Assembly (NCBI GenBank): GCA_019166125.1
Contig: JAHTBO010000002.1
Span: forward strand, 374,997 to 438,996
Direction of reading: 5' to 3'
DNA: 64,000 nt
DNA from: Alcaligenaceae bacterium CGII-47
GTDB lineage: Bacteria > Pseudomonadota > Gammaproteobacteria > Burkholderiales > Burkholderiaceae_B
The notes under the pieces were generated by a model. That model saw nothing but the letters and a program-made list of their open reading frames with translations. It ran no database searches and was not told the origin of the DNA. The position numbers and the translations under genes were made by a program. Of this stretch, positions 18,101-19,096 are shown piece after piece. How positions within the stretch are numbered: the first letter of the stretch is position 1; every line of letters starts with the position of its first letter.

Positions 18101-18235
18101 TTAAAAGCCTGCTGCGGCACCCAGCCACATCAGCCCCGGTATCATCGCAGCCCATGCAACGACCATACATACATCACCCATCCCGGCGGTCATGCTGCGC
18201 AATCCCCGGGTCTGCTGTGTCGTCTGATTCTTCAT
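18101..18235 (-). CDS. 44-residue membrane peptide under two SOS boxes
   Basis: A short open frame, ATG at 18235 and TAA at 18103-18101, too short for usual gene calling. Support: a clear ribosome-binding site (GCGAGG, 8 bases before the ATG); a basic, polar N-terminus (about residues 1-14) followed by a hydrophobic helix-forming segment DVCMVVAWAAMIPGLMWLGA (21-40) and a tiny tail; and two tandem LexA boxes just upstream. One membrane span with the N-terminus probably inside is expected. I do not recognise a named family. SOS-induced single-span peptides of this size in other bacteria include TisB (a membrane-depolarising toxin of E. coli) and SidA (a division inhibitor of Caulobacter); a similar role is inference from size, hydrophobicity and regulation, not from homology. 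Confidence 0.72.
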   Translation of the reverse strand: MKNQTTQQTRGLRSMTAGMGDVCMVVAWAAMIPGLMWLGAAAGF

Positions 18236-18257
18236 GTCTAACCTCGCTAGATGTAGA

Positions 18258-18298
18258 GGTAATGTCGACCCGCCACCTAAGCGTTTCGACCATTACCT
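18258..18298 (-). promoter_or_regulatory. Inverted repeat in the leader of the SOS peptide gene
   Basis: On the minus strand AGGTAAT, one extra G, then GTCGA pairs with TCGAC followed by ATTACCT, giving a 12-bp stem with one bulge around a 17-base loop. If transcription starts upstream of 18298 it would form a strong 5' leader hairpin; if it starts near 18291 only part is transcribed and the repeat may act as DNA. It ends 22 bases before the start codon. Confidence 0.55.
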
Positions 18299-18347
18299 AT
18301 ATACTGTGTTTTCATACAGCTTAACTACACTGTACAAAAACACAGTC
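18298..18347 (-). promoter_or_regulatory. Tandem LexA (SOS) boxes and promoter
   Basis: Two exact CTGT-N8-ACAG sites lie 26 bases apart: TACTGTGTTTTCATACAGCT at 18302-18321 and CACTGTACAAAAACACAGTC at 18328-18347. This is the LexA box known from gamma- and betaproteobacteria. On the minus strand a TATATA -10 candidate (18303-18298) directly follows the first box, so LexA would cover the promoter; an alternative -35/-10 (TTGTAC at 18337-18332, TATGAA at 18316-18311) lies within the boxes. The only gene in the right orientation is the peptide at 18101-18235; on the plus strand the boxes face only the 3' end of the peroxiredoxin gene. Confidence 0.82.
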
Positions 18348-18386: not shown

Positions 18387-19028
18387 TCAAAGGTCGGGCT
18401 GAGGCGTCGTACGCAGATAGGGGCGAATTTCCTTGTAGCCCTTGGGGAACTTTTCCTTAAGTACCGCAGGGTCCTTGATCGAAGGGGCAATAATCACGTC
18501 CTCGCCCGGCTCCCAGTTCGCTGGTGTGGCGACGCTATGACTATCCGTTAGCTGTAAAGAATCCAGCGCACGCAGGATTTCGTTGAAATTGCGCCCCGTG
18601 CTCGCTGGATAGGTCAAAATCAGACGAACTTTCTTGGCAGGATCAATGACAAACACCGAGCGTACCGTCAGGGTGGTACTGGCGTTAGGGTGGATCATGT
18701 CATAGAGTTTCGCAACCTTATGGTCCACATCGGCAAGTATCGGATACGCAACCTTTGTGTTTTGTGTCTCGTTGATATCCTTGATCCAATCGAGGTGCGA
18801 CTCTGCGCTATCCACCGATAAGGCAATCACCTTCGTGTTGCGCTTGGCAAAGTCACCCGACACAATCGCGGTATAACCCAGCTCAGTGGTGCACACGGGC
18901 GTGAAATCAGCCGGGTGAGAAAATAATACACCCCAGCTATCGCCGAGGAACTTATAAAAATTGATCTTGCCGAGCGAGGAATCCTGCTCGAAATCGGGCG
19001 CAATATCACCCAGACGCAACGTGCTCAT
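18387..19028 (-). CDS. 1-Cys peroxiredoxin (Prx6 type)
   Basis: 213 residues; reduces hydrogen peroxide and organic peroxides. The peroxidatic cysteine is Cys46 in HPADFTPVCTTELG. No other cysteine is present, so it is a 1-Cys enzyme that needs an external thiol. The C-terminal extension with PNWEPGED-like sequence (ANWEPGEDVI) and FPKGYKEIRPYLR is diagnostic of the Prx6 group. AAGGAG lies 6 bases before the ATG at 19028. The promoter candidate is TTGTAC (19126-19121) and TATTAA (19102-19097) with 18-base spacing. Confidence 0.95.
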   Translation of the reverse strand: MSTLRLGDIAPDFEQDSSLGKINFYKFLGDSWGVLFSHPADFTPVCTTELGYTAIVSGDFAKRNTKVIALSVDSAESHLDWIKDINETQNTKVAYPILADVDHKVAKLYDMIHPNASTTLTVRSVFVIDPAKKVRLILTYPASTGRNFNEILRALDSLQLTDSHSVATPANWEPGEDVIIAPSIKDPAVLKEKFPKGYKEIRPYLRTTPQPDL

Positions 19029-19096
19029 CAAAAGCTCCTTATTGGACTATATAAGACCGACCGCCCTAAATACCGAACGGCATACAAACTCATTGC

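Follow-up and report, generated by a model that had tools for sequence, protein, structure and literature searches.

Small membrane inhibitors that are induced by the SOS response have been described from several bacterial lineages; the span of YneA binds TM7 of FtsW, and low-confidence AlphaFold 3 models implicate FtsW for SidA, SosA and ChiZ as well (PMC13396833). SidA and DidA act on FtsW/FtsI/FtsN (PMC4211646). In Escherichia coli, DinQ, which is governed by two LexA operators and has one short span, depolarises membranes (PMC3567139), and TisB is weakened by the replacement of its central lysine 12 (PMC11575346). The peptide gene described here, which is not named in the available portions of the open-licence literature on the SOS response in Betaproteobacteria and Burkholderiales (Alcaligenaceae, Bordetella, Achromobacter, Burkholderia) or in that on PA0069 and LexA, was found in a 64,000-nucleotide stretch of DNA from an Alcaligenaceae bacterium (the window, a term that denotes the whole stretch analysed). 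It offers a family-wide candidate for an SOS membrane inhibitor in bacteria in which SulA proper was not found.

The peptide locus and its LexA boxes

The membrane peptide gene occupies positions 18101 to 18235 on the reverse strand (44 codons, with the stop codon at 18101-18103), and is recognised by homologues, selection and hydropathy. It opens with an ATG, and its product is laid out as a basic N-terminus followed by a single C-terminal span, DVCMVVAWAAMIPGLMWLGAAAGF, the one hydrophobic stretch in the hydropathy profile. The ribosome-binding site GAGG (18242 to 18245, reverse strand), identified from the sequence, is located 6 nt 5' of the ATG. Further upstream, and likewise on the reverse strand, lie a proximal LexA box (18304 to 18319; CTGTATGAAAACACAG when read along the gene), which ends 68 nt before the ATG, and a distal one (18330 to 18345; CTGTGTTTTTGTACAG in the same reading), both recognised as exact sites and by their matrix scores. 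The first-pass annotation of this DNA had described two exact LexA sites 26 bases apart, a distance that runs from start to start, ahead of a short gene with a ribosome-binding site and a single hydrophobic stretch, and all of these elements are present. Downstream, at a distance of 103 nt and co-oriented with the peptide gene, lies rplS (ribosomal protein L19; 17623 to 17997, reverse strand), and upstream a gene for a 1-Cys peroxiredoxin (18387 to 19031, reverse strand), both identified with Pfam. Within the approximately 1.5 kb at most that was searched per locus, rplS is a common neighbour of the peptide gene, matched at 79 of 109 loci, and the peroxiredoxin a frequent one (46 of 109). A scan of the peptide locus for promoters and terminators found none.

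The exact consensus CTGT-N8-ACAG occurs in the window at just these two sites, with 0.58 expected, and at least two such sites appeared anywhere in 14 of 100 shuffles of the window. Across the whole genome (G000, 3.45 Mb), 42 exact sites stand against 30 of the backward motif, so that the exact consensus by itself constitutes weak evidence. The window locus stands out because no other two exact sites in the entire genome are separated by 2-20 bases (the backward-motif control yielded none), and because its boxes score 19.9 and 19.7 with a matrix trained only on the lexA operators of relatives. Genome sites that score at least as high are those of lexA (29.1), of imuA (21.8), one internal to an ORF (L001, 24.0) and one at the locus L213 (19.9), while the recA site, at 17.1, falls below the window boxes; the identities of LexA, ImuA and RecA were assigned by NCBIfam models above their cut-offs.

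Some of the remaining sites deserve mention in their own right. L001 (G000:C1:79977), the second-best LexA-like site of the genome, lies within an ORF and its target gene is not obvious; L228 and L006 (scores of 16.9 and 16.3) are also sites with no obvious target. At L213 (G000:C2:329000-331400), the box at 1203-1218 is close to a C-5 cytosine methyltransferase gene (PF00145, 3e-44) and a 69-residue ORF, and the locus is possibly an SOS-controlled restriction-modification or defence module.

Distribution and conservation of the peptide gene

Homologues were sought with the 44 residues as query in 151 genomes, an even sample of the bacterial family and not its entirety. A match at E<=1 was obtained in 126 of them, and 109 loci, from 108 genomes and 34 of 43 genera, were kept at E<=2.6e-4; weaker matches, most of which looked like chance, were dropped, including one (genome G050, E 0.018) that was later shown to be genuine by its place and sequence. 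The family that bears the homologues is the Alcaligenaceae, whose named records include Castellaniella (the window's genus, g1, with seven genomes in the sample), Pusillimonas, Pollutimonas, Candidimonas, Achromobacter, a Bordetella and others. The remaining 43 of the 151 genomes had no match that reached E<=2.6e-4. Eight genomes gave no lexA match, six of which belong to genus g8 and measure 0.7-0.8 Mb; many other genomes in which the peptide is missing do have lexA. A genome assigned to Yanghanlia caeni (G038) has two copies of the peptide gene on separate contigs (L033 and L087), both with LexA boxes.

The reading frame is under purifying selection. Over the last 24 codons, each copy being compared with that of the window, mean pN is 0.17 and mean pS 0.77, and pN is lower than pS in 102 of 102 comparisons, a set from which one locus with no proposed start and five with proteins ending two residues further on are excluded. 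The earlier claim of a real gene is upheld by a frame conserved at 109 loci, with homologues in 108 of 151 genomes; the proposed check for relatives that conserve the boxes and not the frame was run, and the frame turned out to be conserved. Judged by its codons, the peptide gene is real and its conservation is long-standing. Profile searches beyond the family matched one genome outside the Alcaligenaceae in an order sample of 300 (E 0.009), a sample that also contained members of the family, with matches in six of these (among them the genome of the window itself), and one of 274 in a class sample (E 0.008). Both matches are at chance level and a wider spread is rejected; the restriction to this lineage that had been suggested agrees with these order and class samples, in which nothing credible was found outside the Alcaligenaceae.

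The window peptide had no match in the family databases searched, and the search of 27 members against Pfam, NCBIfam, PHROGs and PADLOC returned weak, single-member matches only (the strongest, with an RNA cyclase model, at E 0.011), nothing credible having emerged to contradict the first reading that no family is recognised. An origin in phage or defence systems is rejected, PHROGs having given no credible match and PADLOC none. The SulA domain (PF03846) was not matched by any of the 27 members, among which one-member matches were obtained to TraT (E 0.1) and Syntaphilin (E 0.41). SulA proper was not seen in the Alcaligenaceae either: the SulA model matched two of 151 genomes, one match being weak and interrupted by stops and the other being ImuA. 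A true SulA in genome G012 was rejected, the match sitting directly after lexA and scoring as ImuA. In the order, the model matched 53 of 200 genomes and the four matches tested are ImuA; SulA may be missing widely in the order, and this would not be special to the Alcaligenaceae. Because the tested matches of the order are also ImuA, the absence of SulA lends only mild support to a role in division.

Double-box loci were found in seven of 200 genomes of the order, and inspection by eye of the ORFs beside the boxes at seven of the loci revealed no relatives of the peptide. At L242 (G340, from 1490) and L243 (G181, from 1558), which belong to another family of the order (f32), double exact LexA boxes directly precede hydrophobic proteins of 157 and 146 residues with no Pfam match, perhaps another unnamed SOS membrane protein. 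In L237 (G266, family f31), a double LexA box is located immediately 5' of a lexA-like ORF.

LexA control and the exchange of its promoter

LexA boxes are found just upstream of the peptide gene in 81 of 109 loci: 77 have at least one exact box, 51 of these having two or more, and four have one-mismatch sites only. When sites within 400 nt of the span are counted, the 82 short-form loci comprise 51 with at least two exact boxes, 20 with an exact box and a one-mismatch partner, six with one exact box only, four with one-mismatch sites only and one with none. The exact backward motif was found upstream of none of the 109 loci, and no exact box was found in the 400 nt downstream of any of them, where sequence covered that region. 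The four short-form loci with one-mismatch sites only are less secure, since such sites also arise by chance (in four of 27 long-form loci); three of the four score at least 12 with the matrix and one scores 10.4.

Within 400 nt of the span, an exact box is lacking at every one of the 27 long-form loci. All 30 lexA operators that were inspected, those of the best 30 among the 143 genomes with a lexA match, have exact LexA boxes, and lexA in the long-form genera does carry an exact box. The idea that the Achromobacter/Bordetella group (named after records in genera g4 and g6, its remaining genera being g9, g10, g16 and g36) had left the SOS regulon, there being no exact box at the gene, was overturned by a box located further upstream. 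Each of the 27 long-form loci, and likewise the box-less short locus L078, follows a same-strand radical SAM gene at a distance of -4 to 153 nt; next to the other 81 loci this gene was not found (0.4-1.6 kb upstream covered). All 28 of these radical SAM genes are preceded by one LexA box, whose end lies 7-8 nt upstream of an in-frame ATG of the gene; 18 of these boxes are exact and 10 have one mismatch, with matrix scores from 12.4 to 26.2, and the arrangement is repeated in G050 with a one-mismatch box. LexA boxes consequently stand before the gene, or before the head gene of an apparent operon, at 109 of 109 loci (14 with one-mismatch boxes only). These sequence data, with boxes at 81 peptide genes or at the leading gene of the other 28, agree with the SOS control proposed at first, and make it close to certain that the peptide gene is LexA-controlled.

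Spacing and strand suggest that the radical SAM and peptide genes form one operon. A possible origin is indicated by g33 (two genomes, assigned to Paralcaligenes and Candidimonas), in which a LexA-boxed radical SAM gene follows etfA and lies upstream of acyl-CoA dehydrogenase and peroxiredoxin genes, after which come a LexA-boxed peptide gene and rplS. In the simplest history, a deletion would have removed the intervening genes together with the peptide's promoter, joining the peptide gene to another LexA promoter. SOS control seems to have survived this exchange, since the 28 box-less loci follow a LexA-boxed radical SAM gene. The replacement of one LexA promoter by another amounts to a natural experiment, and suggests that control by DNA damage is under selection. 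In a tree of 31 LexA proteins the long-form genera group with g43, with modest support (83/92), and in five of five g43 genomes a LexA-boxed radical SAM gene is present with no recognisable peptide behind it.

The radical SAM gene was matched in 62 of 151 genomes, in many of them away from the peptide gene, and in none of the seven genomes of the window's genus; the partnership is thus not obligate, since the enzyme was not matched in this genus and elsewhere often stands apart. Short peptides of approximately 44-45 residues in genus g12, L296 (G050) and L078 (G011), lie behind the radical SAM gene as well, so that the arrangement is not bound to the long protein. A LexA box marks the start of the radical SAM gene itself in 36 of 36 stretches (28 and 8; L254-L281 and L292-L299), among which are the five g43 genomes with no following peptide, and by this pattern the gene looks like an SOS gene; one member weakly resembles spore photoproduct lyase (E 1.4e-5, under the cut-off).

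Architecture of the peptide and of its leader

Conservation was assessed in 104 genus-weighted sequences from 33 genera, with the exclusion of five rows that end two residues later. In the C-terminal span, a P, two W and two G are conserved at 99-100%, a D at the inner edge at 97% and a terminal F at 93%; the helical periodicity of this conservation is not significant (permutation p 0.06). The last 22 residues are free of charge in 103 of 104 homologues, and 103 of 105 proteins with at least 40 residues have an N-terminal part of net positive charge. According to the positive-inside rule, the basic flank of a membrane span is expected in the cytoplasm, and the tail is therefore predicted to be cytoplasmic. 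This tail often contains the motif WPF, present in 35 of 81 short forms (missing from 46) and 25 of 27 long forms, and preceded by K or R ([K/R]WPF) in 53 of 108 proteins; WPF is missing from the window copy and from the six other copies of its genus.

Protein starts were chosen by a rule that combines a start codon, a ribosome site and a position past the box, so that individual starts may be wrong: three give just 27 residues, and L114 offers no start. By this rule the median length is 61 residues for short forms and 135 for long forms, and forms as long as 194 residues retain the same C-terminal span. The proposal of a 44-residue protein with one span was thus right as to the span, which is the same across homologues, and not as to the usual size, most relatives being longer.

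The leader of the window gene contains a hairpin (18257 to 18298, reverse strand) that is significant in the window genome (z -4.5), and a second, small hairpin over the ribosome site. Of the 51 family leaders that were folded (40-160 nt), 11 have z below -2, four of these from one genus, and the mean z is -0.9; some leaders, as set by the start rule, are merely 8-16 nt long. A structured leader is rejected as a family trait, so that the early description applies to the window genome and fails as a shared plan. No repeats longer than 10 bases, which is the chance level, link the transcript to the 3 kb on either side, in a search to which a fully overlapping antisense RNA would be invisible, and Rfam gave a single match at the locus, far under threshold.

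Possible functions of the peptide

The reading that best accommodates these observations, and to which we give about an even chance on sequence grounds, is that the peptide is an SOS checkpoint effector, an inhibitor of septation akin to SidA or YneA. LexA would hold the peptide gene off until DNA damage leads to LexA cleavage and the peptide is made; it would then insert into the inner membrane, its tail facing the cytoplasm as the positive-inside rule predicts. The conserved span would bind a membrane protein of the late divisome, the septal wall synthase FtsW/FtsI being the most likely partner, and septation would be paused until LexA is restored. The [K/R]WPF motif that the tail carries in many genera could serve as a second contact, one that is absent from the window's genus. 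Points that weigh against this reading are the same layout in the depolarising DinQ, the non-significant helical periodicity, the 43 of 151 genomes with no match, several of which have lexA, and the g43 genomes with no recognisable peptide behind the boxed radical SAM gene. A bolder proposal, which we consider doubtful, would have an as yet unnamed Alcaligenaceae SOS checkpoint, shared across the family, in which the span jams the septal wall synthase while [K/R]WPF provides cytoplasmic docking, and which in the Achromobacter/Bordetella group would form one LexA operon with the PA0069 radical SAM enzyme, possibly involved in DNA repair, and be induced as a two-part module.

Among the alternatives, the one that survives best, if with a rather low probability, is that the peptide is the membrane effector of another SOS task, either tethering a repair or replication protein to the membrane through its [K/R]WPF tail or, in the Achromobacter/Bordetella group, acting for the radical SAM enzyme encoded ahead of it. 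The presence of [K/R]WPF in about half of the proteins, the 28 of 109 loci that lie behind a LexA-boxed radical SAM gene (of whose products the two tested exceed the cut-off for the PA0069 family, NF033668) and the absence of the peptide from some lineages would be in keeping with it. However, the 46 short forms that lack WPF keep the span, and the radical SAM gene, unmatched in the window's genus and often distant from the peptide gene, is not an obligate partner.

It is unlikely that the peptide is an SOS toxin similar to TisB or DinQ, which would depolarise the inner membrane and slow growth under restraint by LexA and perhaps an RNA antitoxin. Its size, single span and double LexA operators, the latter as in DinQ, would suit such a role, as would the structured leader of the window and of 11 of 51 family members. 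The TisB resemblance noted in the first-pass annotation nevertheless proved weak: the last 22 positions are uncharged in 103 of 104 homologues, whereas the central lysine 12 matters in TisB (PMC11575346), and no candidate for an RNA antitoxin was found, with no repeat above 10 bases within 3 kb, an Rfam match far below threshold and leaders that average z -0.9. Strict residue conservation, and forms of up to 194 residues that keep the same span, also speak against a toxin; inhibition of division fits better than a TisB-type toxin because the span is both residue-conserved and uncharged. Finally, that the boxes are real but the ORF accidental, its transcript acting merely as an RNA or as a leader for the co-oriented rplS 103 nt downstream, is so improbable that it can be dismissed, given a frame kept at 109 loci with pN far below pS, a codon conservation that speaks against it, and an adjacency to rplS that is not universal (79 of 109).

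Comparison with known systems

DinQ and TisB are type I toxins with antisense RNAs, whereas no antitoxin was found for the Alcaligenaceae locus, whose product has an uncharged span with strictly conserved residues. The likeness lies in their being SOS-induced single-span or small hydrophobic peptides, and in the two LexA operators of the DinQ promoter (PMC3567139). For the toxin reading, DinQ provides the strongest precedent. The radical SAM protein whose LexA-boxed gene is the neighbour in 28 of 109 loci is placed by its two tested members in the PA0069 family (NF033668), an enzyme family that has been named without a function and that is distinct from the peptide itself. Natural variation among the loci (short and long variants, a position behind the radical SAM gene in some, and genomes with no peptide) should be useful in the mapping of function.

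YneA and ChiZ possess a LysM domain outside the membrane, whereas the Alcaligenaceae protein ends at its span and its tail is predicted to be cytoplasmic. Like SosA, both are small membrane proteins that are induced by the SOS response and arrest division at a late step; YneA, that of Bacillus subtilis, does so by way of the contact between its span and TM7 of FtsW (PMC13396833). SidA of Caulobacter crescentus, a LexA-controlled small transmembrane protein that inhibits division through FtsW and FtsN (PMC4211646, PMC13396833), is comparable by description, and belongs to another lineage. In contrast to SidA, the Alcaligenaceae peptide combines double operators with a basic, often WPF-bearing tail, and its long forms are located behind a radical SAM gene.
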